DNA of 23,013 nt from a virus. The notes beneath the pieces are model-generated. The model had not been told where the DNA came from and made no database searches. It saw only the letters and a program-made list of their open reading frames with translations. The stretch covers positions 1-23,013 of the IMG/VR virus record IMGVR_UViG_3300020351_000017. One strand, written 5' to 3'. Below, in pieces: positions 1,176 through 23,013 of the stretch (the stretch's first letter is position 1; every line of letters begins with the position of its first letter). The position numbers and the translations under genes were made by a program.

Positions 1176-1179
1176 TGCT

Positions 1180-5459: not shown

Positions 5460-5485
5460 TTATCATTATTAACTAGGACAAGATT

Positions 5486-6796: not shown

Positions 6797-6813
6797 CCAA
6801 TAAAATATTCCGA

Positions 6814-6854
6814 CCTTTCCAGACCCGTAAGGGTCTGGAAAGGGAGGGATTTTA
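6814..6854 (+). terminator. Strong hairpin after the capsid gene
   Basis: A perfect 13-base-pair stem (6814-6826 CCTTTCCAGACCC pairing with 6831-6843) closes on the tetraloop GTAA (6827-6830), a GNRA-type loop. It starts 18 bases after the capsid stop. The T run behind it is short and set back (TTTT at 6850-6853), so it may be a partial terminator that lets some transcription into the polybasic genes, or a 3' stabiliser of capsid mRNA. Confidence 0.75.
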
Positions 6855-6870
6855 GATAAGGAATTAGACT

Positions 6871-7053
6871 ATGTCTATTATAGGTAAAGCGGCAAAACAT
6901 CTAGTAAAGAAAACAAAAGCTAAGAAAAAACCTAATAAGAAAACTAGAATAAAGAGAGCTAAAGCAAAAGCAAGATCTCGCTATAATCAAGACATGGACA
7001 AAGAATACAGGTATGAACGAGACAAATATAAATGGGGTAAAATGCCATTTTAA
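6871..7053 (+). CDS. Small polybasic protein (paralogue A)
   Basis: 60-residue protein with 23 Lys/Arg and 5 acidic residues. It begins MSIIGKAAKHLVKK, almost identical to the next gene's MSVIGKAAKHLMKK; then comes a Lys/Arg-Ala/Pro stretch (residues 13-40) and an aromatic, mixed-charge end (YRYERDKYKWGKMPF). AAGGAA precedes the ATG. It is the first gene after the capsid hairpin. The composition resembles DNA-condensing core or protamine-like proteins, so a packaged nucleic-acid-binding or capsid-lining role is plausible. No known family is recognised. The duplication and good ribosome sites argue it is real despite its size. Confidence 0.7.
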   Translation: MSIIGKAAKHLVKKTKAKKKPNKKTRIKRAKAKARSRYNQDMDKEYRYERDKYKWGKMPF

Positions 7054-7065
7054 AGGAGTATAGTT

Positions 7066-7332
7066 ATGTCTGTTATAGGTAAAGCAGCTAAGCATTTAAT
7101 GAAAAAGAAAAGTCGTAGCTACACTAAGAAAAAAGCTAGTAAGAAAACTAGAGTAGCTCGAAATAAAGCAAAAAAGCATAAAGATTGGGAACATGACTTA
7201 GCTTCAGAAGAATTTGCTTATAAAAATCCAGGACAACGAATACCCAGTAAGAAAGCACTTATAGGCAAAAAACCACCTAGTAAACGAGTAGATCCAAAAA
7301 GAAAAAAGAAACATGAAATAGATCTACCATAA
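7066..7332 (+). CDS. Small polybasic protein (paralogue B)
   Basis: 88-residue, strongly basic protein and tandem paralogue of the preceding one: the N-terminal 14 residues match at 12 positions, followed again by a KKASKKTRVARNKAKK-type block. It has an additional C-terminal half with a short acidic patch (DLASEEFAYKN) and another basic block (PPSKRVDPKRKKKHE). GGAG lies eight bases before the ATG, and the gap to paralogue A is 12 bases, so the two are co-translated. Likely to bind nucleic acid; possibly packaged in the head. No catalytic motif. Confidence 0.7.
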   Translation: MSVIGKAAKHLMKKKSRSYTKKKASKKTRVARNKAKKHKDWEHDLASEEFAYKNPGQRIPSKKALIGKKPPSKRVDPKRKKKHEIDLP

Positions 7333-7347
7333 TATAGGAGTACAGTT

Positions 7348-7665
7348 ATGCCAGTATGGGCAGTAATACCTAAATTTAGTAAGCTTGTATCTGCTGCAAT
7401 GAAAAAAGCAGGAGGTACTCCTGCAGCAAGACAGAAAGTTATAAAAGAAAACCCTAGCTGGTTTAAATATATGCCTGGAAAGGCTGGAAAAAAAGCAGGT
7501 AGTACACCAGCTAAAGCTAAACCTAAAGCGACAACAGCTAAAAAGGGAAAAGGTGGTTTTAGTGAAGTACAGTTAGAAAAATACAGAGACATGTATAGAA
7601 ACAGAAAGAATGATAAAAGATGGGATCGCTTATCCCCAGATATTAAAAACAAGCTATTAAAATAG
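7348..7665 (+). CDS. Third small basic protein of the cluster
   Basis: 105-residue basic protein. It starts with a short hydrophobic segment (MPVWAVIPKFSKLVSAAMKKAGG), then an Ala/Lys/Pro-rich linker reminiscent of histone H1 tails (residues about 44-72: AGKKAGSTPAKAKPKATTAKK), and a helical C-terminus (FSEVQLEKYRDMYRNRKNDKRWDRLSPDIKNKLLK). It has the same type of upstream site (TAGGAGTACAGTT) as paralogue B (AAGGAGTATAGTT), suggesting the leader was duplicated with the genes. The protein itself is only loosely similar to A and B. A role alongside A and B in the head is inferred from position and charge. Confidence 0.7.
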   Translation: MPVWAVIPKFSKLVSAAMKKAGGTPAARQKVIKENPSWFKYMPGKAGKKAGSTPAKAKPKATTAKKGKGGFSEVQLEKYRDMYRNRKNDKRWDRLSPDIKNKLLK

Positions 7666-7673
7666 GAGGAACT

Positions 7674-8306
7674 ATGGAAGATGTGAAGTTAACACCAATT
7701 GATCAAATGACTCAGGACGAACTCAAACAAGAGTTAAAAGAGTATGGAGTTGTGTTTCACCATAAAACAGGTCAAGCTAAATTAGCGGAATTACTAGCTG
7801 ATGTTAGAAAAAATCCTGAAAGCATGGTACAGGATTTTGATAATGAAGACGTAGCTACAGATCGCCCATATGAAGGCGGTAATCCTAATGCAAGTGAAGC
7901 TGCTATAGCTGCAGCTACTAAAGCAATGAAACGAACTGGAGAACAAGAAGCATTAAAATTAGTTCGTATTGTAGTTACTCCTAATGATCCACTTATGAGT
8001 AGTTACCCTGGCCTTATATTTACAGTAGGAGCTTCTGGCCTTAATAACGGAAGAATGATTAAGAAATTTGTTCCATTTAATAACGAAGAAGGCTGGCATG
8101 TTCCTAATATTATTTATAATCAGATAAAACATGCTGAGATGCAAAAGTTTAAAACTGTTACTCGTCCTAATGGTGAGAAAGTATTAGAGCCTTACATTAC
8201 TCAAAAATTTAACGTACGAGTATTGGATCCCCTTACTAAAGAAGAATTGGAAAGACTAGCTGCCGCTCAAGCAGCTAATCCAGCATTCCATACGGGAGAT
8301 AACTAA
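7674..8306 (+). CDS. Head-associated protein with N-terminal HeH/SAP-like motif
   Basis: 210-residue protein. Residues about 10-45 (MTQDELKQELKEYGVVF ... TGQAKLAELLADV) have the helix-extended loop-helix pattern of HeH/LEM/SAP motifs, which phages often place on small virion or DNA-associated proteins. Residues 95-190 form a predicted beta-rich domain (KLVRIVVTPNDP ... GLIFTVGASGLNNGRMIKKFVPF ... EGWHVPNIIYNQIKHAEMQKF), ending in a helix (LTKEELERLAAAQAANP). A strong AGGAGG precedes the ATG; the stop overlaps the next start as TAATG. Its place after the capsid genes suggests a head or neck protein. Family not named with confidence. Confidence 0.65.
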   Translation: MEDVKLTPIDQMTQDELKQELKEYGVVFHHKTGQAKLAELLADVRKNPESMVQDFDNEDVATDRPYEGGNPNASEAAIAAATKAMKRTGEQEALKLVRIVVTPNDPLMSSYPGLIFTVGASGLNNGRMIKKFVPFNNEEGWHVPNIIYNQIKHAEMQKFKTVTRPNGEKVLEPYITQKFNVRVLDPLTKEELERLAAAQAANPAFHTGDN

Positions 8307-8830
8307 TGGCTATTACTATTGCTGATTTAACTGCTGGAGTTGCTACTGATGCTAATAACGTAGTAACAGGTACAGGTGTATTTGATGATCTAATGGAAAC
8401 AGTAAATGCACATATGGCCGCTCAATTTAATTTAGGTCGTATTACTGGCAGTGACTACGCAACAGTGTATTTGACCGCTATGCAAGCAGCTGTTCAGCAA
8501 GCTGTAGCTTATGTAATAGGGATGCAAAAAGGCAATGCTGAAGAATCCCTACTTTTCCAAAAAGAAGTTACGGAATTTGCTCAAACTGAACAAAGTACTA
8601 AAACTGCCCCAACAACTACTTCTGTAGCAGGGAGAGCAAATAACTTGTCTACTGAACAAGCTAAAGGGTTTAAATGGAATGCCGATCAGAAATACCTTAA
8701 AACTCTATTAGACGCTTGGAGCGTAAATGTCTCAACTGCTGGTGTTGCCTCTACAGGTGTAGTTGCTCTTAATACAACTGGAACAGGTAATATTAATACG
8801 CAAATAACTAACGCAGAACCTACAGGATAA
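8306..8830 (+). CDS. Putative virion structural protein (174 aa)
   Basis: 174-residue protein starting MAITIADLTAGVATDANNVV. Residues 20-95 are helical (FDDLMETVNAHMAAQFNLGRI, then TAMQAAVQQAVAYVIGMQKG), the middle is Thr/Gln-rich, and the C-terminus (from about 140) is Ser/Thr/Val/Gly-rich, suggestive of beta structure. It has no enzyme motif. The composition and place between head genes and the large 938-aa protein suggest a neck or tail-attachment component. Translation is coupled to the upstream gene (one-base TAATG overlap). Unknown function. Confidence 0.65.
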   Translation: MAITIADLTAGVATDANNVVTGTGVFDDLMETVNAHMAAQFNLGRITGSDYATVYLTAMQAAVQQAVAYVIGMQKGNAEESLLFQKEVTEFAQTEQSTKTAPTTTSVAGRANNLSTEQAKGFKWNADQKYLKTLLDAWSVNVSTAGVASTGVVALNTTGTGNINTQITNAEPTG

Positions 8831-8835
8831 TAGCA

Positions 8836-11652
8836 ATGGGGTTTATTGCTAATATTTTTACCGCTATTGTTGATGTTGTTGTAGCGATAGTTGAAGCAGT
8901 TGTACAAGTAGTTGAGATGGTTGTGCAGTTAATTATGGTATTACTTGGGTGGGATGGGGGTTCCACCCAAATAATTGAGTATTACGAAGTTCAGAATATC
9001 CCCTTGTTTGATGATGTAGATAAGAAAAATCCCACCGCCTCCGCTATTCTTCAAAGTATCCTGGCAGATAAAGACTTAGTTAGTAGTCTTATTTATCATC
9101 TTGCGTTTCGTAGCCTTAAAGGAAACGTTAAAGAATTTATGGATTTTATTGACAATGGGAACTATTTTGAAAACTTTCCCGCAATAGAATCATATATTTT
9201 AACTATAGATTATGATGAAGTAACTGATGTATTAAATACTATTAATGGTGTCCCTTGTACAATTGAAAATGCGTATTTAAGAGCTTTATCAAAATCTGAT
9301 TGGGTTAAGTCTTGGTTACAAGATAATAAAGGATATGATGTAGGTCTTAATCGACTGGGTACCGAATATCGAGAAGTAACTACCACGCCTAGTATTCCTG
9401 CTGCGGATACTGTTAATGTCACGCCATCAGTAAATCATTTTCAAATAGATATAACTAGTGAAATGGCTACGTCAGACGATGTCTTAGTTGATATGCGGTG
9501 GTATGTTAATTTAAATACTATTGTGTATAATTCAGGCACAGACGACTATACTGTTGAAGCTTATAATGACGCTGGTGTAACAATAACCCTCCCTTATACT
9601 GTTCCATCACGACCGGGACAAGTTCATTATGTTGTAACTTATTATAGAGATGTGGATCCAAGTAGAATCTATCTATTTATTTATCAAGCAGGATCTGGAA
9701 CATATACAGATTTAGATACAATAGAGGATCCTATTGATATAGATGGCAGTACGCTTGAAGTTCTTCCCGCAGTTCCTTTAAGAATAAGTAATTCTAACTA
9801 CACTACATTTGGGGCAACTAAACAAGCAGCAATAGAAGATATATTAAAAATAATACATCTAGATGCAGCGGAAGTTCTAGACTCTATTTTAACTGACCCT
9901 GGAGTAGCAAGTAATCTAGGGGATATAGATAATATTTATGTAAATTTCGGTGTAAGAATGTGGGATACATCTCAAGCAGGTATGTCCTATTTATACAGAA
10001 TGTTTGAGAATTTATACCCAGCCCAAGGCACCACACAAGGAGATTATGATAATTCTCCAGCAGGGGATGATAAACCGCAGAATAATATCCTTACTTCGAC
10101 AGATGACAACGAATATGCATTTCAGTTTAGCTATATTACCTATACACATACCCCATTAATCGATATTGATGCTGATACTGGGAGTGTCGAAAATGGTATC
10201 TACTATTCAGATATGTCTAAATTTGGGGATGATGGACTATTAAAATATAACTACTATAGTTCCTCTGGTAAAGGGACGTATAACGTAGGGTATAAAGCGG
10301 ATAATTTAGATGAAGTACAGGATTTCTTAGATGGGAATGGGGTACCTAATCCTGGTACTACGTCTGGGGAAGCAACTAATTGGTTACAAGTAACTGAAAG
10401 AATGAGCTATAACAATCCTTCTCCTGTATTACAGGAATCTGATGGAAGTACTAGCTCATTAATATATCTAACTCCTGACGCAGTTTATGAAAATAATGGA
10501 TCTGGTGTATTACGCTTAGTTCAGCAAGCTTCAGAAGAAACAACTATAGGACAATCAATAACTTACTATTGCATTAAACCATCAGGATTAGATGCATATA
10601 CAGTTGCCCAGCCAATAGGTGCTTTAAAAGTTATTGATGGAGATACTGGTAAATTTAAAATGGTTAAATTTAACCTTGGGGCTCAACAGGATCTCATGGT
10701 TCCATTTATTCATACATTTATTAAGGATCTATCTCATGCCGAAGTTAGTAAATTATTTTTAGCAGGATGTCATGTATCTATCTATATAGCTCATTATGAA
10801 GTAATAGTCCACGCAGGCATGAGTTTTCTTACGGCCTTAGTAATGATTGTAGTTATTGTAGTTATAGTCGTAATTGCTTGGCCAACAATTAAAGCGGGTT
10901 TTGCAGCTATGAAGGCGGGTATAGCAAAATTAACATCAGCTGCACTAGCAGGAAACTTTTTAAGCGTAGCATGGACTATGTTTTTAGAAGCTATCCCTAG
11001 TATGCTTATAAAATTTGCTGCTCAGTATGTAATTCAGCTAGCAATTGAGGAGATAGCTAAGGATAACCCAGAATTAGCCATGATTCTTAATATCGTAGCC
11101 TCAGTAGCTATATCTATGTGGGATCCTGGCGTAACATTTGGGCCAACAGGTGCTCCTATAGGTACTTATGGGCATACAGGAGGAGCGACACTTGGAGCAG
11201 GAGGTGGTAGTTTAACTACGCCTTCACCTAGCACATCATGGAGTTTTAGATCTACGGGAATGAAATTTAAAAGTCTATCTTCTTTGACTTTTTTAGATTT
11301 AGCTGAAATAGCTACAAAATTTGTAACAGGTATAGGAAGTTTAGAATCTATGGCTGTAGGAGCTCTAGCTGAGACTTTAGCAGCAGATACCGCAGCATGG
11401 GGCGTAGAAAGAGCAAGTAAGTTACAGGAAATCAATGAAATGGAGAATTGGTTGGATAGTCGTAAAGCAGTGAATCTAGCACCAGTACTAACTGCACAAT
11501 GGAGAGTAGGAGGAGGACGATCTAATAATGGATTACCAGAAGGTATATCGGCTCCTGTGTATCTTGATGCTTGTATAGGAGCATATGTTCCTATGCGTAT
11601 TGATTCTACTTTTATGTATCCTTGGGATCATGATCCTTATGATTACGCATAA
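8836..11652 (+). CDS. Large virion protein with membrane-type segments
   Basis: 938-residue protein. Residues 3-39 form a long, almost uncharged Val/Ile-rich segment with scattered Glu (IFTAIVDVVVAIVEAVVQVV), and a second strongly hydrophobic helix spans about 663-682 (SFLTALVMIVVIVVIVVIAW), followed by more amphipathic helices to about 760. Between them (about 190-620) lies a beta-rich region full of Asp, Tyr and Thr. The C-terminal part has a Gly-rich linker (about 775-800) and ends with aromatic and Asp-rich residues (YPWDHDPYDYA). A protein of this size, conserved in the late cluster with buried hydrophobic helices, could be a tail/portal-vertex or ejection protein that enters the host envelope. 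I do not recognise the family. Start at 8836 has only AGGA upstream. Confidence 0.65.
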   Translation: MGFIANIFTAIVDVVVAIVEAVVQVVEMVVQLIMVLLGWDGGSTQIIEYYEVQNIPLFDDVDKKNPTASAILQSILADKDLVSSLIYHLAFRSLKGNVKEFMDFIDNGNYFENFPAIESYILTIDYDEVTDVLNTINGVPCTIENAYLRALSKSDWVKSWLQDNKGYDVGLNRLGTEYREVTTTPSIPAADTVNVTPSVNHFQIDITSEMATSDDVLVDMRWYVNLNTIVYNSGTDDYTVEAYNDAGVTITLPYTVPSRPGQVHYVVTYYRDVDPSRIYLFIYQAGSGTYTDLDTIEDPIDIDGSTLEVLPAVPLRISNSNYTTFGATKQAAIEDILKIIHLDAAEVLDSILTDPGVASNLGDIDNIYVNFGVRMWDTSQAGMSYLYRMFENLYPAQGTTQGDYDNSPAGDDKPQNNILTSTDDNEYAFQFSYITYTHTPLIDIDADTGSVENGIYYSDMSKFGDDGLLKYNYYSSSGKGTYNVGYKADNLDEVQDFLDGNGVPNPGTTSGEATNWLQVTERMSYNNPSPVLQESDGSTSSLIYLTPDAVYENNGSGVLRLVQQASEETTIGQSITYYCIKPSGLDAYTVAQPIGALKVIDGDTGKFKMVKFNLGAQQDLMVPFIHTFIKDLSHAEVSKLFLAGCHVSIYIAHYEVIVHAGMSFLTALVMIVVIVVIVVIAWPTIKAGFAAMKAGIAKLTSAALAGNFLSVAWTMFLEAIPSMLIKFAAQYVIQLAIEEIAKDNPELAMILNIVASVAISMWDPGVTFGPTGAPIGTYGHTGGATLGAGGGSLTTPSPSTSWSFRSTGMKFKSLSSLTFLDLAEIATKFVTGIGSLESMAVGALAETLAADTAAWGVERASKLQEINEMENWLDSRKAVNLAPVLTAQWRVGGGRSNNGLPEGISAPVYLDACIGAYVPMRIDSTFMYPWDHDPYDYA

Positions 11653-11714: not shown

Positions 11715-12608
11715 ATGGCAGAAAATAATATTCCTTTATGGCAACAATATATTAATCAATATGCCCGTAGAGCAAGTAGACCTACATGGGGCAGACCGCA
11801 ACAACCTCCTGGGTGGGAATATCTAGCTAATCCACAACAATCAATGCCCGCAGTGATACCCACAGATTCAGCAGGTTCATATAGTTGGGCAGATCAGAAC
11901 GCTTATTCTGTAAATCCACAAACAAAAGAAAGGTATTTACCTGGGTGGAAAGCGAATCCCTATAGTGCTACTGGTGGTGTGGATGCAAGAATGCCTAGCT
12001 ACTATGCAATGTCAGAAGGCGTAGTTCCAGATGATTGGAATTTCGGTGGTGGTGGTAGTGGTCGTGATAGATGGAAAAGTCTAGCAAGGCTTAGTGGAAA
12101 TCAAAATTTTCTTAACCTACCCACAGCAAATGAGCTAGCACAAACATACGGTAGTGCTAATATTGGTGGTAGTAGTTGGTTTGATACGGATACTGGTACT
12201 GGTACTGGTACTGGTACTGGTACTGGTACAACTAAGGATGAAGATGATCCAGATTTGTATGATCCATTTGATGTAGGTGAACCTTCAGTAGACCAGATGA
12301 GATCATCCGCTACAGGATTAATTGATCCCTCTAAGTATGGATCAGATTCAATATGGAGCGGGATTAAAGAGTGGACAGGCAAGAATCCAATGAAAGCTGC
12401 AGGTATTGGTTTAGATTTATGGAAACAAATAAACCAAAATAGAGCTTTGTCACAAAATAAAGCATATATGGATGATGTACGAAAAGCCATGGCATTTGAT
12501 CAAGCTGATGTAAATAGACGTTGGGATCTAACTATGAAAGACTACAATAGACGAGTAGCTTTAGATGATAAATTCTTAGAGTCTCAAAAATTACCTACAG
12601 CAGTTTAA
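11715..12608 (+). CDS. Putative internal virion / ejection protein (297 aa)
   Basis: 297-residue protein in two parts. Residues 1-190 are low in predicted structure, rich in Pro, Gly, Trp, Tyr, Asn and Gln, with a Gly run and the (Thr-Gly) repeat at about 160-173. The C-terminal 100 residues are helical, with a pattern IKEWTGKNPMKAAGIGLDLWKQ followed by N-x-x-A-x-x-x-N-K-A stretches as in small ejection proteins of T7-like phages (gp14-type). It begins a cassette of small protein, 688-aa protein and giant protein. It probably forms part of the channel through the envelope; this is inferred from architecture and order. AGGAG precedes the ATG and a promoter lies just upstream. Confidence 0.6.
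   Translation: MAENNIPLWQQYINQYARRASRPTWGRPQQPPGWEYLANPQQSMPAVIPTDSAGSYSWADQNAYSVNPQTKERYLPGWKANPYSATGGVDARMPSYYAMSEGVVPDDWNFGGGGSGRDRWKSLARLSGNQNFLNLPTANELAQTYGSANIGGSSWFDTDTGTGTGTGTGTGTTKDEDDPDLYDPFDVGEPSVDQMRSSATGLIDPSKYGSDSIWSGIKEWTGKNPMKAAGIGLDLWKQINQNRALSQNKAYMDDVRKAMAFDQADVNRRWDLTMKDYNRRVALDDKFLESQKLPTAV
12191..12229 (+). repeat. TACTGG hexanucleotide tandem array
   Basis: Six exact copies of TACTGG plus a partial seventh, in frame, encoding a Thr-Gly repeat within the 297-aa protein. Identical third positions in every unit indicate recent slippage-type expansion. Because the unit is six bases, copy changes alter linker length by two residues without a frameshift. Confidence 0.9.
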
Positions 12609-12834: not shown

Positions 12835-14901
12835 ATGGCAAGAACTAACTTACCAGGGAATATTTTAAAAAGCCTTAATACCAGATTATTAGGCAATTTA
12901 AAAAGTGGAGTTGATACTAATATCGACTTAATGCAGGGTCAAGCTAATCTAGCTGAGCAGGGAGTTCAACGATATGCAGATATCTCTGCACAGGATTTTC
13001 TTTCAGATATAGAAGCTGTTAATACGGGTGATCCTACACAGGATCTTTTAGCGAGAAATCAGTTAGTTCAACAAATGAAAGCAGACCCTGGTTTAATTGA
13101 TATGGGTAAAGTTAATGTAGGACTGAGAAATATTCGAAAACAAGCTCCTATTGATTATTTAAAAGGTCAAGAGGCACAAAAAGCATTTAAAACGCAACAT
13201 GATATTGACTGGGATACAAAGCACATGCGTGATCTTCCTAATCAATTTTTAGATGACGGTTCCGTAAATCCTGCTTTTCAAACAAGCTTAGAAAGTAATA
13301 TTGCCGAAGCTAGAAGAAACAATATTGCTATTCCTCAAGAAAAAGCTCTGTATCGAAGTATATTCGATAATGATCCCTTTACACTATCAGCAGATACGAC
13401 TACTACGTTAGAGAATCTATCAAAAGGTGGTGCAAAAGCATTTACTAAATCAGCACAAGCAGGTGTGATTAATAAAATAGCCGATAACATGGCTAAAAAA
13501 TATCCTGGAATAACAGACAGGTCTGTATTCAAAACTAGAGCAGGTACTTTACTAGCTAATTCTAAATACGGTCAAAATTTTACATTAGGAATTGCAGATG
13601 AAGCTACTGATACAATTGATACGCTTGCAATAGAACGAATGCAAAGTGATATAAGTAACGCTGCTCAGAATTATGGTAAAGGAACGGGAGAAGTCCTTGC
13701 TCAAAATAATAAAGTATATAGAGATAGTGTTAATGCTTTAATTACTTTTATGAATAAAAATAATATTGGAAGCGATCATCCAAACGCAAAAAATCTACAA
13801 GCTCCAATATTAAGAGCACTACAACGAGACGGCCTATCTTTAGACAGTGTTGTTAAAAACAATACTAGTTGGTTAGCAGAATTAAATAGTGGTGCAATTA
13901 AAGTTAGTACTGCACAAAGCATAAAAGGGGCAATACGTAGACACTACCAAAATCTATATCCTGAACTTACAGATGGTATTTTTGATCAGCACTACGACAA
14001 ACTCAAAAATAACGCAGGAAGTGGTATATCAGCAGCTATTACACAAGGAGCTGCGAATGCTGCAGCTAGGGCAAAGACTATTGCCATAGATATGAAGAAC
14101 AAAGAGGAATTCTGGTCAAGAGCGAACAGAGATGCAAATGCAATGGAGTATGAAACTGTTGAGGGTCATATTACTAGATCGTTAATGGAACAACTTAAAA
14201 GCGACTATAAAGATGAAGACTTTGACCCAGGTACTGGGATGGAACTTCAGGAATCAATAAGAAGGACTAAAAATCTATATGATTATGCTATAGGTCGAAA
14301 ACTTCCTGAAAGCGGCCCCGAAAGGGATGCTTATAATTTAGCTCTTAAACGAACAATGCTAAATAGTGTTACTTGGGACACAAAATTCACAGTCGGAGGA
14401 TATACTGTAGTAAAAGCTGATTTCGGAATGGTAGGCGCCCCAGGGAATATAAGTCCTGAATGGTGGGATAATTTTCCAAATAAAGTAGATCTGTATAATA
14501 GATTTAAAGAGAATATTATACCTGCTAACGCTCTTAGAAAAGCTGAGAAAAATGAAAGAAAACTTAAAGAAGGATCTAAAAGCCTAATAACGGCAACCAA
14601 TGACGCTCTTAAAAGTGTTAAATCACAAACACCACAAATATCAAAGTCTAGGGTTAGTTCTACTTATTCACAAGGTCTTGATCCACTATATCAATTTTCA
14701 CAAGGAGGAGTAGGAAATCGTTATCAACCATCTACTACTGGTCAACCAATTCCAAGTCAGAATACAGGAGGAACTCCGACTGCAAATCCAAACGTTGTAG
14801 AATTAGACAATGGAACCTTTCAGGTAACTTTACCTAATGGTAAGACGGAAATAATAAGTAGAGAAAAAATGGCAGCCTACACTCTAATGGGTAGGCAATA
14901 A
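12835..14901 (+). CDS. Internal virion / ejection protein (688 aa)
   Basis: 688-residue protein, mostly alpha-helical and Ala/Asn/Gln/Lys-rich, without membrane segments. Its size, order (after a gp14-like small protein, before a giant transglycosylase protein) and composition match the middle ejection protein of podoviruses (T7 gp15-type, about 750 residues). It opens with MARTNLPGNILKSLNTRLLG. The region about 590-650 is a Ser/Thr/Gln/Pro linker, and the last 38 residues (651-688) form a small beta-type module (VVELDNGTFQVTLPNGKTEI) that recurs inside the giant protein. AAGGAG precedes the ATG. Expected to be packed in the head and injected to form the DNA conduit across the periplasm; the assignment is by architecture and context. 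Confidence 0.65.
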   Translation: MARTNLPGNILKSLNTRLLGNLKSGVDTNIDLMQGQANLAEQGVQRYADISAQDFLSDIEAVNTGDPTQDLLARNQLVQQMKADPGLIDMGKVNVGLRNIRKQAPIDYLKGQEAQKAFKTQHDIDWDTKHMRDLPNQFLDDGSVNPAFQTSLESNIAEARRNNIAIPQEKALYRSIFDNDPFTLSADTTTTLENLSKGGAKAFTKSAQAGVINKIADNMAKKYPGITDRSVFKTRAGTLLANSKYGQNFTLGIADEATDTIDTLAIERMQSDISNAAQNYGKGTGEVLAQNNKVYRDSVNALITFMNKNNIGSDHPNAKNLQAPILRALQRDGLSLDSVVKNNTSWLAELNSGAIKVSTAQSIKGAIRRHYQNLYPELTDGIFDQHYDKLKNNAGSGISAAITQGAANAAARAKTIAIDMKNKEEFWSRANRDANAMEYETVEGHITRSLMEQLKSDYKDEDFDPGTGMELQESIRRTKNLYDYAIGRKLPESGPERDAYNLALKRTMLNSVTWDTKFTVGGYTVVKADFGMVGAPGNISPEWWDNFPNKVDLYNRFKENIIPANALRKAEKNERKLKEGSKSLITATNDALKSVKSQTPQISKSRVSSTYSQGLDPLYQFSQGGVGNRYQPSTTGQPIPSQNTGGTPTANPNVVELDNGTFQVTLPNGKTEIISREKMAAYTLMGRQ

Positions 14902-14933
14902 TCTACTAATCTAGATATGAATAACTCAGAAAT

Positions 14934-17900
14934 ATGGCACTTAAAGAAGAGCTACATAACGCAGACATTGTTCAAGCGTTAACTAATGGCGCAACTCCAC
15001 CAAAACCTTCCGCAAGAGACTCCCTTTTACAGACTAAAGCCGCTAGTTTAGCTAATGTACTAAATGCTAAACGCAATAGTGTCCATAATCTTAAAGCTAC
15101 TAGATTAGCACAGGTTATAAATCACAAATATGGTATGGGTGGGGCAACTCCCAATGTAGTCGGTACTAACAGTGATACTTTATCTACAGGTGAATTTGGT
15201 AATGTTACGTTTTCTGATAAAGTAAATCCAGACCCTGTAGTTACAGATGTAACAGCTGACCCTCTTACTACTCCTAAATCTTTTACAGAAGAAAATGAGA
15301 TTTTTACGGCTATAGATGGAGCTGCTGAAGAATTTGGACTTCCTAAAGCATTATTTCGTTCGTTAGTTTTTGAAGAATCAGGCAATAAACAAACTGCTAA
15401 ATCTCCAACCAATGTTAGAGGTATAGCTCAAGTAACACAACAAACCATGGAAGAAATGTTACCTGGTGGCGATGTAAATAATGCCGCTCATCAGTTGTAT
15501 GCTGGAGCTAAGTACTTATCTAAGCATGTTAATAGATGGAAACTTAAAGGATTTGACGAACGACAAGCTCAACAGTTAGCTGCTGCATCATATAATACTG
15601 GTTTTAGTCGTGTGCTGGAAGCTATTAAAGCAACTAAAAAAACTCATCCTACAATGCAAGAAATAGAAACTGCTGGTATTGCTCTATTTAAACAACGACC
15701 ATTTAAAGGTGGAGTTAAAGAAGGCCCTGGTGGAAAAAAAGTAGCTACCAAAAAACGTAAAGATCTTGATAGTTTTAAAGAAGGTATGGGGCATTGGAAA
15801 AAAATTCATTACAAAGATGGTGTATTACAAGATTTTACTAAACCTACTCCTCAAACACCGTTTGTTACAAAAATGCCAGAAGCAGTTGAGGAGACGTCCA
15901 AGCCAGTATCTAGTCAAACACATAAACCAGAAGACAAACCAACACCTCCTCCTATTAAAACAATTGATCCATCTGTTGATATTAGTGCTCCTGGTGGTAT
16001 TGCAAAGGCTGTACAAGAAGCTCCTCCTGCTGATGTAGATTTACGAGATACTGGGGCAGATCGTAGAAAAGCTGAAAGACTACAAGCACAAAGAAGAGAA
16101 TTTAAACGAATAGATGAACTTAGAAAAATTACTAATAAGGCAGATAAAGAAGAAGTTGTTTTAACACCTACTCACAAATTACCTCATCTTAAAGAGCACA
16201 AGCCTCCTACACCTATTACTAAACCTCCTAGTGTTGATATAGATAGAAGAGATCCAGGTAAAGACCGTGCAAGAGCAGAAAAACTGCAAGCAGAACAACG
16301 AAAATTTAAAAGAATAGATCAAGAACTAAGTAGCCGTAAAAAACAAAAGAAGTTTAGTGTGGATAGTCTTAGTGGTTATGGAGATTTTGCAACTGGACGT
16401 CAGGATCTTTCCGCAAATCAGTATTTAAATTCTGGTCTTGATACCATTATGGACAATGTCCAGACCAATAAAAAAATTATAGAAGATAAACATGATTCTG
16501 CTTATTTTGATAACAAACGTAAACAAGCTCTTACAAAGAGAGCAGAAATTATTTCTGATCCTAAAGGAACTTATCAACAACCTGCTGTTACTCCTGAAGT
16601 TCCAGAAACGGTACCAGAAGTAACACCAGAAGCAGTTCCGCAAATAGATGTTCCAGAGCCAGATATTTATAGTCCTCGATCTGTACCAAAAACAGTTAGT
16701 GAAAATATTTATAGTCCTGCTACTCCTCGCCCTGCTGAGGCTAAAACTTATGAGGATTTATACAGTTCTTACAAAACTCCTAATGAAGCACTGATTAAAG
16801 AAATTTATAAACTACCAGATTTTACTCCATCATCTCCAATAGTATCTGTAAATCGTAACTTAGTAGAATTACAAGATGGAACATATCGTCTACTTACACA
16901 AGACGGTACATGGATGCCTTTTAGCGATAAAATCGAAGCTCAAGTATTCATGGCTTATGATATTGCAAACTATCAAGCTAATCTTTTGGATCATCCTGAA
17001 GAAACATCAGTATCAGGAATGTACAATAAATTAGTAGGAGGTTTAGTTGATCCTGTTGAAACTATATTTCAAGGATTTGTAGGAGCTACAACTTTAACAG
17101 AACATATTAATGATCATAATAATAGACTTAAAGCTGGAAGTTTTCTGTCGTCTATTACACATGATCCTAATGATGAAATTACTCAGCAAGACAAATTAAA
17201 CTATTTAGCAATTCAAGAAAATAAAGGACTATCAGCTGAGTTGCAGGCATTTAAGGATAGTGAAAAGTATCAAGTAATTGCTACTTTAGATAAGGATGCG
17301 AAAGAAAACCAAGACCAACAAGCTAAGCTTAAAGAATTCTCTAAAATATGGCATGAAGCACATCCATATAATAGAAAATATATTGAAAGTGCTACTACAG
17401 CAATGCGTGTAATTGCTAAAGAGCATGGCAATGCGGCAGCAGCTTTAGAGCTATTTAAAGAATACAAAGGTACTCTTGCCCTACAAGGTCTTGATAGTTT
17501 TGGATATACGGTAGCATTAGTATATGGAAATATACCTGTCCAACTTGGGCTACTTACTGGCTTAGCTAGAGGCAGAACTAAGGCTAATATTGAGCAGTAT
17601 GTTGCCGAGCATGGTGAAAAGGCATTAACACCTGAAATACTTACGGATATTAAAATATTTTCTACTTTACAAGAAGTATCTGAAAAAGTAAGTGCAGGTA
17701 TAGTTGTAAAACAACTTAAATTAATCCCAGGATTAGGTGGTGCTGGTTTATGGGGCACACAGATAACGAATGGTGTATTGGCAACTATACATCCTACTGT
17801 ACGTACGTTAGGTAAAGTAGTATGGGCTCCTCCTAAAATGTTTGGTGCTGAGTTTGTACAAGGAACAACTAATTCAATGCTGGAACAAGCGGCATTACAG

Positions 17901-20900
17901 AAAAAAGTTGATATTGGTAAAGCAGCAGTTGAAGGAGGAATTCCAGAAGGATTTGCAGTTGGTACTATGGCACCAGCAATGGCAGTTGGAGGAACAGCCA
18001 AAGAGGTAACTAAAAAAGTTGCTAAAAAAGCATGGGATCCTTCTGGAAAGAAAGCAGCAGCTAAAACAGACAAAGCAACTAAACAAAAAATTGAAAATGA
18101 AATAAAGAGCACTCAAGAAAAAATAGAAAAAATTAAAAAGATGCAAGAAGCACCTTCTAATTTAAAATCTAAATTAGACGCTCTTACTGAACAATTAACT
18201 GATTTACAAGATGCTTATGATGAAATACCCAATCTACACGGTAAAACTTTAAGTTTACCTGGTCGACCTGGAAAACTGGAAACTACTAATACCTTACTGA
18301 AAAAGCTATATAAGCCTTATGAACAGTTAGTTTCAGATGGTGCCATGTCATTAGATGACGCTATCGAAGCAATGAATGATGATTTAGAAGCTGAAATAGA
18401 GAAAAGACTAGAAGAGAAAACTAATTTAGAAGAGCAACTGCCTGATCCAATCACACTTGAAGATACTGTTGAATATGTACAACATGAGGGCAAAGCAGTA
18501 CCTGTAGGGATTGGGGCAAGAAAAATGACTGAACTCTTAGAACTTGAACTCCAATTAGAAACAAAAATAGCTGAACATAAGAGTAATGTTGAAAAGATTA
18601 ATCAAAGTGACATACCTGGGCCGAAAAAACAGGAAGCTATTAAAATAGAAGAACAGAAACATGCTACATACCTAGAAGGAGCAATTAAAAAACAGGATAA
18701 ATTGCTTAATGAGTTGCAAGCTCCTCTTAACCCAACAATGCTCAAAGTCTATGAAAAACAATTAATAGACGTTAATGATAGAAGAACTAAGGTACTTGAA
18801 AATGAATCATATAAAGCAAGTCCTAAGTCTCCGACTATGCCAGGATCCGCAAATCCAAAAGGATTTAGGGCTGATGGAACAGGTAGAGATGTAGACAAAA
18901 TTTCAGATGAAGAAGTTGATGCTCAAATTACATTAATTAAAAAGATGAGCGAAGAAGAAGATCCAGATATTACGAATTTTGATCCAAGTGGAAAGTTTAA
19001 ACCAGGAGACGTAGTTCATTTAAATACAACTGATGAAGAATTACTTAAAAAAGGTGAACAAGGATTTGTTATTGAAACAATCCTAGGCAAACAAGAAAGA
19101 GATGGGAAGGTTCATGTAAAACTTGCAGGAGTAACTGAAACTGTCCCAATTGATTCATTAATATTTGGAAATAAACCACGAACTGATACAACTCCTTCTA
19201 CAAAATTAGATCATGTAGAGGCATTAATTGATAAAGATTTAACTGATGCACAGATTACAAAAGTACGAGAACAACTCTCAAAAGAAATAAAAGAACTAGA
19301 AGAAAAAATAGGAACTGGTAAGAGAGTTCTAGGGTCATTAGAAGATAGGCTTGATGAAATAGAAAAGTTAACTCCAGAAGAATTAGAAAAGAAATTAGCA
19401 GAAGCCAAGTCCCCAGATGACATAAAATTCTGGACAGCTAAACTTAATCAAAAAAGAATTCAAAAAGAAAGAGGTGAAAAACAAGACGCTATTGATAAAG
19501 ATATGGCAACGGTACATGAGGAAATTCTTGAAGGGGAGAGCAAGAAATTTAAAGGATTACATGCTTACTACACAGACATTGTAACAGCCCTTACTGAATT
19601 AACAGATCATGTAAAACTCACAAGACGACTTGAATCTCTTGTTTCAGATATGCGTACTCATGCTACTAATATAAACAATAAATTAAATGCATTTGATAAT
19701 GCCTATGAAATATTTACTAGTACTGGTAAAGCCGTAGCTGTTGTGGGTACTAAAGCTGAAAATAGTAGAGATATGACCTATGAAGTAGTAACAGATATGA
19801 CCGAGACTCAAATTGATGAAGCACATAAAAAGAAATTATATAATGGAAAATTTGCGTATGTTACAAAAATAGATAAAAACTCAGGTAGATTAATTGATAC
19901 GCTTGCTGGGGAAGTAAATTATGGTAATTGGATTATGGGGGTAGTTGAAGGACATAGAAATACTTCTATGGCTAAAAATGAATTCAATAAAGCCCGAAAT
20001 CTTGCTGAACACGAAGAAGTTTTAAGAAGATTAAAAAAAGCTAAAGATTCTCTTAAAGCACCTGAAATAGATGAAGCAACAATAGAGGGAATATCAGTTG
20101 AAGACATTCCTACAACTCCGACTGCTATTCTTAAAGAAAACCTAGAAGCTATTTTACAAAGAGGGTTGGAACTTAAAAAGAAAATAGACGAGGGTACAAT
20201 AACTCCAGAGGAAAAAAATGAACACGAATCTCTCCAACAAAGCTATATTGCTCTCAATAAAGAAATTCAAGGACGAGAAAAGATTGAAGGAGCAGAACCA
20301 GGAGAACAACTTGACCTTTTTCCAGAAGGTGAAGTCCCTGAAAGATCTGATGAACCACCTGGCCCAACTACTACACCTTTTGATGAGACTACTCCACCTC
20401 CTAGACCGGGTGAAAAAGGAGAGCAACTCTCGTTATTCGACAGATCTGCCGAAGATACAACAGAAAAAGGAACACAATTAAATCTGTTTCCTAATTTTAT
20501 TGAAGGCAGCAAACGAATATACAAAAGAGCTATTACAGGAGGTGTACTTAAAGTATTAGGCGGTAAATTAACGGCTACTAATTTAGAACGGCAGTTAAAA
20601 GTACTTGGTGCGTATTTTACAGACTTAGTTCAAATCGGATCCACACGACCTACATTAAAAGATGCTGTTAATACTCTGATGGATGAAGATTTTGATACTC
20701 AGGAATCGTTAGTTAATGCCTTAATGAATTTAGGTGTAACACAAGCATCGGCTGAAACATTATCTAAAAACTTTACGCATTTTAAAAATAGATATGATCA
20801 AGTTAGTTCTATAGATTTATCAAGAAAAGAGGTTGTAATACGGACGGTTAATAATGTTACAGACGTAGATAAAGATGGGAATCCTATTCTATGGAAAGTA

Positions 20901-22745
20901 GAAGAATTAAGTAGAGACATAAATGATGCATATGATAAAGATGGTCAATACACTAGAGTAAGTAGAGAGATTAAAGATGCATCTGGTAATATTCAGACCA
21001 CGACTAAGGTATTGCCTACATCTGAACTATTAAATGTTAGAAATCATGCTTTAAGAGCCCCGTTAACTTTACTTCTTCAAGAAGATCCTACTGGTAATAA
21101 CAATCAAGGTGTACTACCTAATCAGATAGTATTTACCATGATGTTAACAGCTATGTCTTTTAGACAACGTACCCCTAACAATAATAGATTTAAGGATAAC
21201 GACTTTGCAAAAGAAGCTTTTCTATATAGTGGTAAGAACCAAACACTTAATAGAAATGAAGATGAGGAACTTAATGACGTTGGTTTTGGGTACCATGATG
21301 CAGCTATGGATATGGGAAACCATGCTATTAGTATTTTAGATCTAAGAGCTAAAAAAATCCCTAAAGACAGTCCTATAGACCAAGTAGGAGCGGATCTATA
21401 TTTTGAACTCCTAGCTCCTGCACTTGGAATGATGGCCTTAGAAATTGCTCAAGGCACTGATAAAGGTGCTTATTTTTCTGTAGAGAAAAAATATTGGAAT
21501 TTTGATGATTACAATGAAAATAGGGCTTTTAACAATGCACCTACGCATGAAAAAGTCTCTGATAATGAAGAGATTAGAAAAAAATATCCAGAAGGTAAAC
21601 CTATACCATTAGAACAACAACAGCATTACTTACATATTAAAGTAGATGAAAATCAAAAATGGAACCAAAGTACTTTTGATGCCTTAGAAGAAATGAAAAG
21701 TATCTCTAAGGCTAATATGATTAATAGTCCTGGCCCTTTTCAAACTCCTCCTCCAATAAACCCATCTACAGGTACTTTTACAGAAGCTCCTAAAGGTGGG
21801 GAAGTTTATGAAACACTTAAAAGACTTCAAAATGTTGTATGGAGTAAATTAGAGTCCATGGATCTTGTGGCTGATTTACGAGACACAGATGTCTTGAAAG
21901 AGCTAATGGATGTTGAGGAGTTATACGAAACTACTGAGGATGGTGAAAAAATACAATTATTCCATGACGTTGAAATAGCCAGTAAAACATCTAGAAATAA
22001 TGGAATGCTAGATACTTTGCAGGAACTATTACAGGCATATGATCGTGGGGAATTAACAGCATTTCATTTAGCTTGGAAATTACAAAGCCACCATAGGTAT
22101 ATGCAGGTAGGTAAGATTAATCCTCAAAATAGTAAACTTACTAGAGGCTTAGTAGGTGCTTGGGGACTTAATAAAATTTCCGTAGATAATGAACAACAGT
22201 TTACTAATTTTAAATTAGCAATTAATGAAGCTTTTGCTGTAGAGAAAAAAGATTTAGTTGAATCAGAAGAAGCCTTTCAGAATATTATTAATCACTCAAA
22301 TAAATTTAAGATCAATATTGAAAATTCAATAGTTTTAGATCTATTTGCAGGTGTTGGCTCATTTGGTTTAGAGTGTCTCTCAAGAGGAGCTAAACATGTT
22401 ACTTTTGTAGAAAAGTATAATGGTGTTTTACCAATTTTAAAAAGTAATCTTAATAATTTAAATATGAGAGAAAAATATGAGATTATAGAGGAAGACTTAA
22501 TATCTAATTACTTTTTGAAAAAAATTCAGCTTAAATTCAATATCATATTTTTAGATCCTCCCTATAAAGAAAAAAGATTGTCAAATATTATTGATAATAT
22601 TTTTCAAGAAAAAATTCTCAATAAAGATGGGGTGATTATTGTGCATAGGCATAAAAAAGAAAATGATGAGTTTTCAAAAAATTTTAGAATTCTAGATGAG
22701 AAGAAATATGGAATATCGAAAATTATATTTGGAAATTTAAACTAA
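14934..22745 (+). CDS. Giant ejected virion protein: lytic transglycosylase + N4-type virion RNA polymerase (truncated), fused in frame to rsmD by the right junction
   Basis: 2603 codons; about the first 2445 are phage. In order: SLT transglycosylase domain at about 120-235 with E148-S149 (catalytic Glu), GIAQ at 163-166 and Y220-N221, as in T7 gp16; two 28-residue charged repeats (367-394, 435-462); a module shared with the 688-aa protein (640-680); helical amphipathic stretches (about 680-1030); coiled coils (about 1037-1110, 1200-1300, 1430-1500) with a small beta, KOW/SH3-like domain between (1354-1413); three QLxLF motifs (1792, 1831, 1848); then a region like the N-terminal part of N4 gp50 polymerases (about 1860-2430), with LRAPLTLLLQED and the T/DxxGR-type motif around R2388 followed by INPQ (2395-2398), as in T7 RNA polymerase (GRVY ... 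NPQG). The palm motifs are absent: after about 2445 the frame is bacterial RsmD. It would cut peptidoglycan, be injected and transcribe early genes. The start has weak ribosome binding. Confidence 0.75.
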   Translation: MALKEELHNADIVQALTNGATPPKPSARDSLLQTKAASLANVLNAKRNSVHNLKATRLAQVINHKYGMGGATPNVVGTNSDTLSTGEFGNVTFSDKVNPDPVVTDVTADPLTTPKSFTEENEIFTAIDGAAEEFGLPKALFRSLVFEESGNKQTAKSPTNVRGIAQVTQQTMEEMLPGGDVNNAAHQLYAGAKYLSKHVNRWKLKGFDERQAQQLAAASYNTGFSRVLEAIKATKKTHPTMQEIETAGIALFKQRPFKGGVKEGPGGKKVATKKRKDLDSFKEGMGHWKKIHYKDGVLQDFTKPTPQTPFVTKMPEAVEETSKPVSSQTHKPEDKPTPPPIKTIDPSVDISAPGGIAKAVQEAPPADVDLRDTGADRRKAERLQAQRREFKRIDELRKITNKADKEEVVLTPTHKLPHLKEHKPPTPITKPPSVDIDRRDPGKDRARAEKLQAEQRKFKRIDQELSSRKKQKKFSVDSLSGYGDFATGRQDLSANQYLNSGLDTIMDNVQTNKKIIEDKHDSAYFDNKRKQALTKRAEIISDPKGTYQQPAVTPEVPETVPEVTPEAVPQIDVPEPDIYSPRSVPKTVSENIYSPATPRPAEAKTYEDLYSSYKTPNEALIKEIYKLPDFTPSSPIVSVNRNLVELQDGTYRLLTQDGTWMPFSDKIEAQVFMAYDIANYQANLLDHPEETSVSGMYNKLVGGLVDPVETIFQGFVGATTLTEHINDHNNRLKAGSFLSSITHDPNDEITQQDKLNYLAIQENKGLSAELQAFKDSEKYQVIATLDKDAKENQDQQAKLKEFSKIWHEAHPYNRKYIESATTAMRVIAKEHGNAAAALELFKEYKGTLALQGLDSFGYTVALVYGNIPVQLGLLTGLARGRTKANIEQYVAEHGEKALTPEILTDIKIFSTLQEVSEKVSAGIVVKQLKLIPGLGGAGLWGTQITNGVLATIHPTVRTLGKVVWAPPKMFGAEFVQGTTNSMLEQAALQKKVDIGKAAVEGGIPEGFAVGTMAPAMAVGGTAKEVTKKVAKKAWDPSGKKAAAKTDKATKQKIENEIKSTQEKIEKIKKMQEAPSNLKSKLDALTEQLTDLQDAYDEIPNLHGKTLSLPGRPGKLETTNTLLKKLYKPYEQLVSDGAMSLDDAIEAMNDDLEAEIEKRLEEKTNLEEQLPDPITLEDTVEYVQHEGKAVPVGIGARKMTELLELELQLETKIAEHKSNVEKINQSDIPGPKKQEAIKIEEQKHATYLEGAIKKQDKLLNELQAPLNPTMLKVYEKQLIDVNDRRTKVLENESYKASPKSPTMPGSANPKGFRADGTGRDVDKISDEEVDAQITLIKKMSEEEDPDITNFDPSGKFKPGDVVHLNTTDEELLKKGEQGFVIETILGKQERDGKVHVKLAGVTETVPIDSLIFGNKPRTDTTPSTKLDHVEALIDKDLTDAQITKVREQLSKEIKELEEKIGTGKRVLGSLEDRLDEIEKLTPEELEKKLAEAKSPDDIKFWTAKLNQKRIQKERGEKQDAIDKDMATVHEEILEGESKKFKGLHAYYTDIVTALTELTDHVKLTRRLESLVSDMRTHATNINNKLNAFDNAYEIFTSTGKAVAVVGTKAENSRDMTYEVVTDMTETQIDEAHKKKLYNGKFAYVTKIDKNSGRLIDTLAGEVNYGNWIMGVVEGHRNTSMAKNEFNKARNLAEHEEVLRRLKKAKDSLKAPEIDEATIEGISVEDIPTTPTAILKENLEAILQRGLELKKKIDEGTITPEEKNEHESLQQSYIALNKEIQGREKIEGAEPGEQLDLFPEGEVPERSDEPPGPTTTPFDETTPPPRPGEKGEQLSLFDRSAEDTTEKGTQLNLFPNFIEGSKRIYKRAITGGVLKVLGGKLTATNLERQLKVLGAYFTDLVQIGSTRPTLKDAVNTLMDEDFDTQESLVNALMNLGVTQASAETLSKNFTHFKNRYDQVSSIDLSRKEVVIRTVNNVTDVDKDGNPILWKVEELSRDINDAYDKDGQYTRVSREIKDASGNIQTTTKVLPTSELLNVRNHALRAPLTLLLQEDPTGNNNQGVLPNQIVFTMMLTAMSFRQRTPNNNRFKDNDFAKEAFLYSGKNQTLNRNEDEELNDVGFGYHDAAMDMGNHAISILDLRAKKIPKDSPIDQVGADLYFELLAPALGMMALEIAQGTDKGAYFSVEKKYWNFDDYNENRAFNNAPTHEKVSDNEEIRKKYPEGKPIPLEQQQHYLHIKVDENQKWNQSTFDALEEMKSISKANMINSPGPFQTPPPINPSTGTFTEAPKGGEVYETLKRLQNVVWSKLESMDLVADLRDTDVLKELMDVEELYETTEDGEKIQLFHDVEIASKTSRNNGMLDTLQELLQAYDRGELTAFHLAWKLQSHHRYMQVGKINPQNSKLTRGLVGAWGLNKISVDNEQQFTNFKLAINEAFAVEKKDLVESEEAFQNIINHSNKFKINIENSIVLDLFAGVGSFGLECLSRGAKHVTFVEKYNGVLPILKSNLNNLNMREKYEIIEEDLISNYFLKKIQLKFNIIFLDPPYKEKRLSNIIDNIFQEKILNKDGVIIVHRHKKENDEFSKNFRILDEKKYGISKIIFGNLN
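16032..16319 (+). repeat. Two copies of an 84-base coding repeat in the giant gene
   Basis: Copy 1 is 16032-16115 (residues 367-394), copy 2 is 16236-16319 (residues 435-462). The 28-residue unit follows D-[VI]-D-x-R-D-x-G-x-D-R-x-x-A-E-x-L-Q-A-x-x-R-x-F-K-R-I-D, with 18 identical positions. Each copy is preceded by a Pro-rich stretch with K-P-P or A-P-P. It is probably a charged helix used twice as a docking or spacer element. Confidence 0.8.
20307..20489 (+). other. Three QLxLF motifs (sliding-clamp-binding consensus) in the giant protein
   Basis: QLDLF (residues 1792-1796, bases 20307-20321), QLSLF (1831-1835, bases 20424-20438) and QLNLF (1848-1852, bases 20475-20489). The bacterial beta-clamp-binding consensus is QL[SD]LF. 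Each sits after a Gly-rich turn (PGEQ, KGEQ, KGTQ) in a Pro/Glu/Thr-rich, probably unstructured linker just before the polymerase region. The pattern is seen directly; clamp binding is inferred. Confidence 0.6.
22255..22285. other. Right phage/bacterial junction
   Basis: Upstream, residues around NEAFAVEKKDLVESEEAF continue the polymerase-like sequence; downstream, from about NIINHSNKF, the sequence matches the RsmD pattern [KE]-E-[SA]-[IL]-F-N-I-[IL] preceding motif I. The breakpoint is therefore near 22275-22285. The reading frame happens to stay open across it. No inverted or direct repeats, tRNA end or transposase is found. Confidence 0.65.
22281..22745 (+). pseudogene. rsmD: rsmD 3' fragment: 16S rRNA (guanine966-N2)-methyltransferase, N-terminus lost
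   Basis: About 154 residues of an RsmD-type methyltransferase, which uses S-adenosylmethionine to methylate G966 of 16S rRNA in the small ribosomal subunit. Motif I is VLDLFAGVGSFGLECLSRGA (fusion residues from 2467), the acidic ribose-binding residue follows at FVE, and the catalytic motif IV is DPPY (fusion residues 2541-2544, FLDPPYKEK). A complete RsmD is about 180-190 residues and starts with MRI[IV]xGxxxGRxL; about 30 N-terminal residues are missing and replaced by phage polymerase sequence. Base composition falls and A/T runs increase compared with the phage part. Its stop overlaps the pgi stop on the other strand by 9 bases, typical of a streamlined genome. Family call strong; loss of the start is caused by the junction. 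Confidence 0.85.
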
Positions 22746-23013
22746 AATTTTCTTAGTCTCTTTTTTAATTAACTCAACAGCAGGTTGATTGTAGGGGTTT
22801 ATTTTCAAAGCTCTTCCAATTAAAATAGTTTCCAACATAAAAAAACAAAATAACTCACCTAAAGTTTTTTCATCCCTTTTTTTAATTTCAAAGCTTCTAA
22901 AAGGTATATTTTTTTTTGTAAAAACATTTTCCGTAGCTTTTTTTTGAGCGTAAGTAATATTTTGAATATTTTTGTTTTTAAGAAAATTTTGTGAGGGCAA
23001 AATAAATTTATTA
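22737..23013 (-). CDS. pgi: Glucose-6-phosphate isomerase, C-terminal part (runs off the right edge)
   Basis: About 92 C-terminal residues of phosphoglucose isomerase, which interconverts glucose-6-phosphate and fructose-6-phosphate in glycolysis. The evidence is the C-terminal pattern T-L-G-E-L-F-C-F-F-M-L-E-T followed by G-R-A-L-K-I-N-P-Y-N-Q-P-A-V-E-L, corresponding to the family's [LI]-G-x-L-[IL]-x-[FL]-[FY]-E ... N-P-[FY]-[DN]-Q-P-[AG]-V-E. The frame has no stop up to the window edge (reads NKFILPSQNF), so the TTG at 23000 is internal and the gene continues beyond 23013. Convergent with rsmD, with overlapping stops and no visible terminator. Chromosomal bacterial gene, AT-rich, consistent with a SAR11-like host. 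Confidence 0.85.
   Translation of the reverse strand, partial: NKFILPSQNFLKNKNIQNITYAQKKATENVFTKKNIPFRSFEIKKRDEKTLGELFCFFMLETILIGRALKINPYNQPAVELIKKETKKILV

Follow-up and report, generated by a model that had tools for sequence, protein, structure and literature searches.

A giant virion RNA polymerase with a lytic transglycosylase domain near its N-terminus, predicted in an uncultured N4-like podophage

The DNA analyzed here, referred to as the window, is the whole of IMG/VR virus record IMGVR_UViG_3300020351_000017 at its full length of 23,013 bases, and its features are collected in Table 1. The genes for the portal, the gp57-position protein, the major capsid protein, the gp53-, gp52- and gp51-position proteins and the virion RNA polymerase (vRNAP) follow one another in the same order and orientation as in N4, and the arrangement of the ejection cassette is also that of DEV. 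The portal is ~53% identical to the best phage matches listed, among them FSL SP-076 (Schitoviridae). Seven hallmark genes are given for Schitoviridae (PMC10654107), and the three of these that were sought, encoding the portal, the major capsid protein and the vRNAP, were all found on this contig, which is a fragment. An earlier note on this DNA had placed a giant protein at the end of an ejection cassette consisting of the 297-aa, 688-aa and giant genes; this order is present, except that a 68-aa ORF lies between the 297-aa and 688-aa genes. The 297-aa protein (window 11715-12608) contains a Thr-Gly repeat that seems to be length-variable or misassembled, because a second IMG/VR contig, L002, encodes 292 aa there. 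Beyond the giant gene, the contig L003 carries genes for a Holliday junction resolvase, a single-stranded DNA-binding protein (SSB) and a Sak4-like protein convergent with the vRNAP gene, and in N4 the genes for SSB and a Sak4-like protein occupy the corresponding position. Beside the resolvase and SSB genes, and likewise convergent with the vRNAP gene, L003 encodes a 2OG-Fe(II) oxygenase (14508-15089, minus strand; PHROG 61, E 4.1e-45; PF13640).

Table 1 Features of the window, with the evidence on which each assignment is based
Feature	Position	Strand	Basis
Endolysin candidate, peptidase M15, separate gene	54-500	-	PF08291 E 3.3e-13; PHROG 894 endolysin E 1.2e-27
Portal protein	1871-3967	+	Phage matches, ~53% identity
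N4 gp57-position protein, PHROG 2120	4293-5459	+	E 1.7e-104
Major capsid protein, PHROG 1357	5486-6796	+	E 2.1e-118
938-aa protein, N4 gp53 position, PHROG 2220	8836-11652	+	E 6.2e-51; gene order
297-aa protein, N4 gp52 / DEV gp73 position	11715-12608	+	Gene order
688-aa protein, N4 gp51 / DEV gp72 position; Pfam finds no SLT	12835-14901	+	Gene order vs N4 and DEV
Phage part of the giant ejection protein/virion RNA polymerase gene, 2,456 codons	14934-22301	+	3' side cut by contig chimera
SLT lytic transglycosylase domain, residues 127-237; E148 codon at 15375-15377	15312-15644	+	PF01464 and motif positions
Proline-rich stretch, residues 238-640, 10.7% P	15645-16853	+	Composition only
N-terminal portion of the vRNAP profile (365-611), weakly matched by residues about 972-1208	17847-18557	+	PHROG 2206
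Single-subunit RNA polymerase module, N-terminal half, residues 1521-2443	19494-22262	+	PHROG 2206; lineage core profile to 2po4 E 2.1e-10
R2388 codon, aligned to N4 gp50 R1421 (TX2GR motif), INPQ next	22095-22097	+	Alignment with 24 isolate vRNAPs
rsmD-type methyltransferase fragment, not phage, joined in frame by the chimera	22302-22745	+	PF03602 E 1.4e-32

The giant ORF runs uninterrupted from 14934 to 22745 (2,603 aa), but the phage sequence within it stops at 22301. The extent of 14934-22280 given earlier is corrected to these limits. The contig is a chimera with a clean break at 22301/22302, and the G+C content falls from 35% to 24% across this junction. Beyond it lies a fragment of a bacterial-type methyltransferase gene without its 5' part, such that ORF residues 2449-2599 match PF03602 (Cons_hypoth95), which we take to be the rsmD-type methyltransferase family, starting at profile position 33 (33-180 of 182). 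The whole of 22302-23013 is AT-rich DNA of bacterial type, in which the 5'-truncated rsmD-type gene is followed by a minus-strand ORF at 22737-23012. Up to 22301 the window is matched by L002 with 99.88% identity (no mismatch, two gaps) and by L003 with 99.97% identity (two mismatches); past that position the two contigs diverge jointly from the window and are 99.98% identical to each other over 10,493 bases. We rejected the idea that the phage had truly inserted into rsmD, because this would sever the vRNAP gene, yet the gene continues in both L002 and L003. The near-identical contig L003 carries the gene from residue 18 through the stop codon (4,621 residues), and joining its reading to the 17 residues at the start in the window gives a complete giant protein of 4,638 aa.

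The earlier note had read an N-terminal SLT domain and, far downstream, an N4-family virion polymerase from the residues E148, S149, GIAQ, YN at 220, and R2388 followed by INPQ. A position check found all of these to be correct, and profile searches bear out both assignments. The SLT family (PF01464) matches with an E-value of 7.7e-13 and 48.5 bits against a curated cut-off of 21.3, and for PHROG 342 (internal virion protein with endolysin domain) the match spans residues 126-316, with an E-value of 1.4e-11. The catalytic Glu of SLT transglycosylases sits in a Glu-Ser motif, which corresponds here to E148-S149 and is followed by GIAQ at 163 and YN at 220; the Glu-Ser motif is kept in all six aligned SLT domains, the window's included. 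The ~400 proline-rich residues that follow (238-640) are probably a flexible link between the SLT domain and the body of the protein. The weak similarity of residues about 972-1208 to the vRNAP family (Table 1) was obtained on the same gene in G002 (PHROG 2206, E 1.8e-5, 11.3 bits) and its window coordinates were converted by hand. The SLT and PHROG 342 matches, and that of PHROG 2206 to residues 1521-2443, are not due to chance.

The evidence for the polymerase comes from profiles, aligned residues and motifs. Within the part of the giant that the window encodes, residues 1521-2443 match PHROG 2206 (virion RNA polymerase) with an E-value of 3.3e-22, in agreement with the earlier claim of resemblance to N4-family polymerases, and the complete protein matches it with an E-value of 2.1e-144 in five stretches, the best of which extends to position 3388 of the 3406-position profile (365-611, 674-1419, 1445-1636, 1675-1983 and 2280-3388, as located in G002). 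In a MAFFT alignment with 24 isolate vRNAPs, R2388, D2568, K2694, Y2702 and D3196 align with R1421, D1556, K1667, Y1675 and D1948 of N4 gp50, which we take to be the catalytic residues of TX2GR and of motifs A, B and C. R2388, with INPQ next to it, thus falls on the TX2GR arginine, and the palm residues to be looked for in the full gene from related contigs are in place and in line with N4 gp50. The five N4 gp50 residues are common to the 24 aligned isolates, apart from a change of the tyrosine to phenylalanine in DEV, phCDa, Littlefix and KPP21. The giant does not keep the literal TX2GR, which many of the aligned isolates lack as well. According to a review, the N4 mini-vRNAP has TX2GR and motifs A, B and C, and mutants show their catalytic role (PMC4496689). 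The ExDGxxxG motif, which has been used for the vRNAP of Schitoviridae (PMC10654107), appears in the giant as ERDGTSNG. Moreover, an HExxH motif is located at 3573, in the C1 part of the C-terminal domain, as in N4 gp50, and a scan with patterns written for the four polymerase motifs from the alignment with the 24 isolate vRNAPs found all four, together with HExxH, in 9/9 full-length lineage proteins, including that of the window (read from L003).

Structural searches with sequence profiles point in the same direction. A core profile built from eight cores of the lineage matches three PDB entries at E-values up to 1 (2po4, 3q0a and 3c2p; best E 2e-10), which are distinct sequences all named virion RNA polymerase; nothing else was found at that threshold. 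The single giant protein has one PDB match, the virion RNA polymerase 11fw_A, which is best in the C-terminal domain (3.5e-7). Against this, PF21894 (N4_RNAP_helical) falls short of its 27-bit cut-off in the protein read from L003 (18.9 bits), although it passes it in the relative L031 (31.5 bits); the cut-off is a library threshold and not a defining biological trait. As to the cupped-hand polymerase fold, an AlphaFold2 model of the core (1,181 aa, eight sequences) is too poor to use, with a pLDDT of 49.6 and no Foldseek match at an E-value of 0.001 or better. At 4,638 aa the giant is longer than the vRNAPs of the published Schitoviridae reference genomes, whose range of 2,842-3,820 aa (PMC10654107) describes those proteins and does not exclude longer ones. 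At the level of sequence, we regard the domains, catalytic residues and gene order of the giant as established, and the interpretation of the earlier note, a transglycosylase merged with a polymerase, as supported.

Is this arrangement peculiar to one contig? Related uncultured vRNAPs were collected by pattern-based scans of viral contigs with polymerase queries and one L031-module query, which give an incomplete list. Near-copies were merged (window/L002/L003; L031/L062, 95% alike in the module; L068/L069; L073/L074), L057, L058 and L059 (79-82% alike) were counted separately, and L032, L060/L072, L071 and L075 were excluded because the start of the vRNAP is unreadable. Among the nine distinct vRNAPs that result, the window's included, an SLT domain is found at the start of six (the window, L056, L057, L058, L059 and L068), a different module, termed L031-type, in two (L031, with L062, and L066) and neither in one (L074, with L073). 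The L031-module query gave L062 and L063, and the L063 contig was found again by a polymerase query as L066. Nine complete vRNAPs of the lineage measure 4,255-4,994 aa. In a midpoint-rooted tree of 32 rows, from which L066, L068 and L074 are absent, eight lineage members lie together beyond a long-stemmed 100/100 branch. Scans of genome contigs with an Acinetobacter-phage vRNAP core and the lineage C-terminus (two short peptide patterns each) gave no relative. Of two phage hits, the one that was read, H1, is surrounded by bacterial chromosome genes, and CAKLQH020000021.1, filed as Acinetobacter phage MD-2021a, has bacterial chromosome genes in the stretch that was read.

In L074, whose N-terminus is the same in L073, no recognised wall hydrolase was found in vRNAP residues 1-800 or in the 822-aa neighbour. 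Because of L074, and because two further members carry an unrecognised module instead, the SLT domain must be regarded as dispensable across the group at large. That neighbour of L074 (516-2984) is unusually long, and Pfam finds nothing in it at an E-value of 0.1. The L031-type module is a conserved stretch of ~150 residues (AEG...VPFGQ...WF.EIYAPT) in the N-terminal region of the vRNAP, seen at L031 2622-3131, L062 5007-5510 and L063 5016-5513 without a recognised SLT. It has no convincing Pfam match (L031, L066), no PDB sequence match (L031) and, as an AlphaFold2 model (pLDDT 63.7), no Foldseek match at an E-value of 0.001. A second structural look at the L031-type model ranked MltF lytic transglycosylases first with a Z-score of 3.9, below the trust level of the tool, and listed MltC, the DLP12 endolysin, T4 lysozyme and a GH19 chitinase lower down among unrelated proteins; a lysozyme-like fold for this module is our guess from the model. 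In L071, an ORF at 559-9969 opens with a 2OG-Fe(II) oxygenase domain (PF13532, E 1.2e-10) and continues with most of a vRNAP; the vRNAP part resembles L074 from residue 1689 on, and the gene seems to be split after an upstream ORF.

For comparison, wall hydrolases were sought in 24 Schitoviridae isolates, which were hand-picked for diversity and not drawn at random (22 from 60 listed of 319 records, plus G7C and N4). Residues 1-800 of each vRNAP and the gp51 equivalents were scanned against all of Pfam, and whole records were searched for PF01464, PF00959, PF07486 and PHROG 2206. An SLT domain was found on the vRNAP of 0/24 isolates. In four of the 24 (C121, At2, nACB1 and Presley) SLT scores over the cut-off on an ORF of 570-665 aa beside the vRNAP, in one (phiCB2047-B) Hydrolase_2 lies on the neighbour of the vRNAP, and in two (Vibrio phages 1.026.O and 1.097.O) a T4-type lysozyme domain (PF00959), just over the cut-off, is located at the start of the vRNAP itself (W05:C1:22182-22472 and W11:C1:28405-28731, respectively). 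A recognised wall hydrolase therefore occurs on the vRNAP or its neighbour in 7/24, and none was found on the vRNAP N-terminus or gp51 equivalent in the remaining 17/24. Below the cut-off, SLT reaches 13.2 bits on the neighbour ORF of G7C and PF00959 reaches 13.9 bits inside the C121 vRNAP. The sole SLT match of Presley (W08:C1:61606-61848) is on a 600-aa ORF adjoining the vRNAP. Measured by longest ORF, the isolate vRNAPs span 3,022-4,101 aa, the origin-split KPP21 excluded, with 1.188.B at 4,101 aa.

The transglycosylase domain of T7 gp16 is N-terminal. As with the giant, the protein that carries it is the largest encoded by an ejection cassette of three genes (PMC9569702, PMC10925440), but the rest of the giant is polymerase; the PHROG 342 match is limited to profile positions 18-177 of 1235, and no homology to the body of T7 gp16 was found beyond the SLT region, with PHROG 342 confined to residues 126-316. 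N4 gp50 shares with the giant the polymerase motifs, the HExxH, the C-terminal domain family and the last place in the ejection cassette (PMC12633501; NC_008720), and differs from it in having 3,500 aa instead of 4,638 and no SLT in the N4 record; its first 800 residues and gp51 have no Pfam match at an E-value of 0.01. The isolates C121, At2, nACB1 and Presley, as well as ZC03, resemble the giant in having a wall hydrolase in the ejection cassette, but on a separate protein, which in ZC03 is an 831-aa lytic transglycosylase protein (ZC03_016) numbered next to the vRNAP (PMC11619397). In 1.026.O and 1.097.O (Pontosvirinae) the hydrolase is at the N-terminus of the vRNAP, as in the giant, but is a T4-type lysozyme and not an SLT. 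Closest by description is the Moraxella prophage protein DR90_1081 (WP_038519592.1), in which Iyer et al. 2017 report an N4-like RNA polymerase fused to a lysozyme/transglycosylase domain (PMC5512222). As described there, it combines an N4-like polymerase, a zincin-type domain and a wall hydrolase in one protein, as the giant does, and unlike the giant also has a predicted RNase (PBECR1). The Possum paper notes that vRNAPs are distantly similar to internal transglycosylases of the T7 type (PMC9569702). Given these three reports (PMC5512222, PMC9569702, PMC11619397), the fusion of a polymerase to a wall hydrolase is already known in kind, and the giant is not a first. A group of vRNAPs longer than 4,200 aa with SLT as its commonest, replaceable N-terminal module was not found described in the literature searched, which was mostly without subscription papers.

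How might such a protein function? We consider it quite likely that an uncultured N4-like podophage ejects the giant as its vRNAP and that this protein bears a lytic transglycosylase close to the N-terminus, its ejection and enzyme activities being those expected from N4, DEV and T7. By sequence, the chain runs from an N-terminal region through the SLT domain (127-237), the proline-rich link and a region weakly resembling the N-terminal part of N4 vRNAP to a Lys/Glu-rich stretch, the single-subunit RNA polymerase (core motifs 2388-3196), the HExxH region (3573) and a conserved C-terminal domain. By analogy with N4, DEV and T7, the giant would travel in the head and be ejected along with its two cassette neighbours, which may build a channel (PMC12633501, PMC10925440); in DEV, the two neighbours of the vRNAP make up a tunnel through the periplasm and a pore in the outer membrane (PMC10925440). 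For N4, the Abstract and the Discussion of PMC12633501 swap gp51 and gp52 between the outer-membrane complex and the tunnel, and the Discussion is followed here. The SLT domain would cut peptidoglycan along the ejection path, the ~400 proline-rich residues could let it act in the periplasm with the remaining chain elsewhere, and the polymerase would then transcribe early genes and help to draw the genome in. One molecule that both opens the wall and starts transcription, as the earlier note envisaged, is what these analogies suggest. According to the N4 authors, peptidoglycan hydrolysis is likely to be needed and the N4 ejection proteins seem to be without it; the cutter is left open and presumably acts in trans (PMC12633501). 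The wall-cutting activity missing from the N4 ejection proteins would here reside on the vRNAP, and the SLT domain would be the counterpart of the T7 gp16 transglycosylase.

An alternative hypothesis is that the chain, made in one piece, is later cleaved by the zincin-type domain that it contains (HExxH 3573) or by another protease, such that SLT and polymerase act separately. The HExxH is present in the window's lineage, N4, DEV and C121, and Iyer et al. suggest possible self-processing; however, a passage in that paper speaks of an unprocessed protein, citing work on the N4 vRNAP (PMC5512222), and we consider cleavage during maturation unlikely. It seems more unlikely still that the SLT domain does not serve entry at all and is a relic or has a role in lysis or head assembly. 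This would accord with L074, where SLT is not recognised, and with the N4 model, in which the vRNAP is expelled last, when the tunnel is already built (PMC12633501); an SLT on a protein expelled last would act late, and therefore either the order differs in this phage or the SLT domain does something else. However, the Glu-Ser motif kept in six aligned SLT domains speaks against this alternative, and the separate M15 endolysin candidate at 54-500 argues against an endolysin role. An assembly error of the kind seen at 22301 can be dismissed as the source of the fusion even though the contig is chimeric elsewhere, because SLT and the polymerase region share a single reading frame in L002 and L003 (in L003 over the whole gene from residue 18) and SLT also starts five other vRNAPs (L056, L057, L058, L059 and L068).

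An ejected vRNAP with its own transglycosylase is the preferred reading, and it invites a more speculative picture, which we offer as possible though doubtful. The vRNAP may be both a wall-opening tip and a genome-reeling motor, with the tethered SLT domain, or another module in sister phages, in the periplasm and the polymerase of the same chain in the cytoplasm, and with the N-terminal module exchanged to suit the wall of the host. Because a single chain would have to place SLT in the periplasm and polymerase in the cytoplasm, the vRNAP would emerge early or with the tunnel, not last.

The question left open for N4, namely who cuts peptidoglycan at entry, becomes testable, and since 7/24 isolates have a recognisable hydrolase on the vRNAP or its neighbour, it can be tested on cultured phage. 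The view that the vRNAP and T7 gp16 occupy the same place in the ejection machine is strengthened, and a deep group of vRNAPs of 4,255-4,994 aa is added above the reported reference range (PMC10654107). The fusion of SLT and vRNAP recurs in this little-studied group of uncultured phages, and it bears on how such phages pass through the cell wall.
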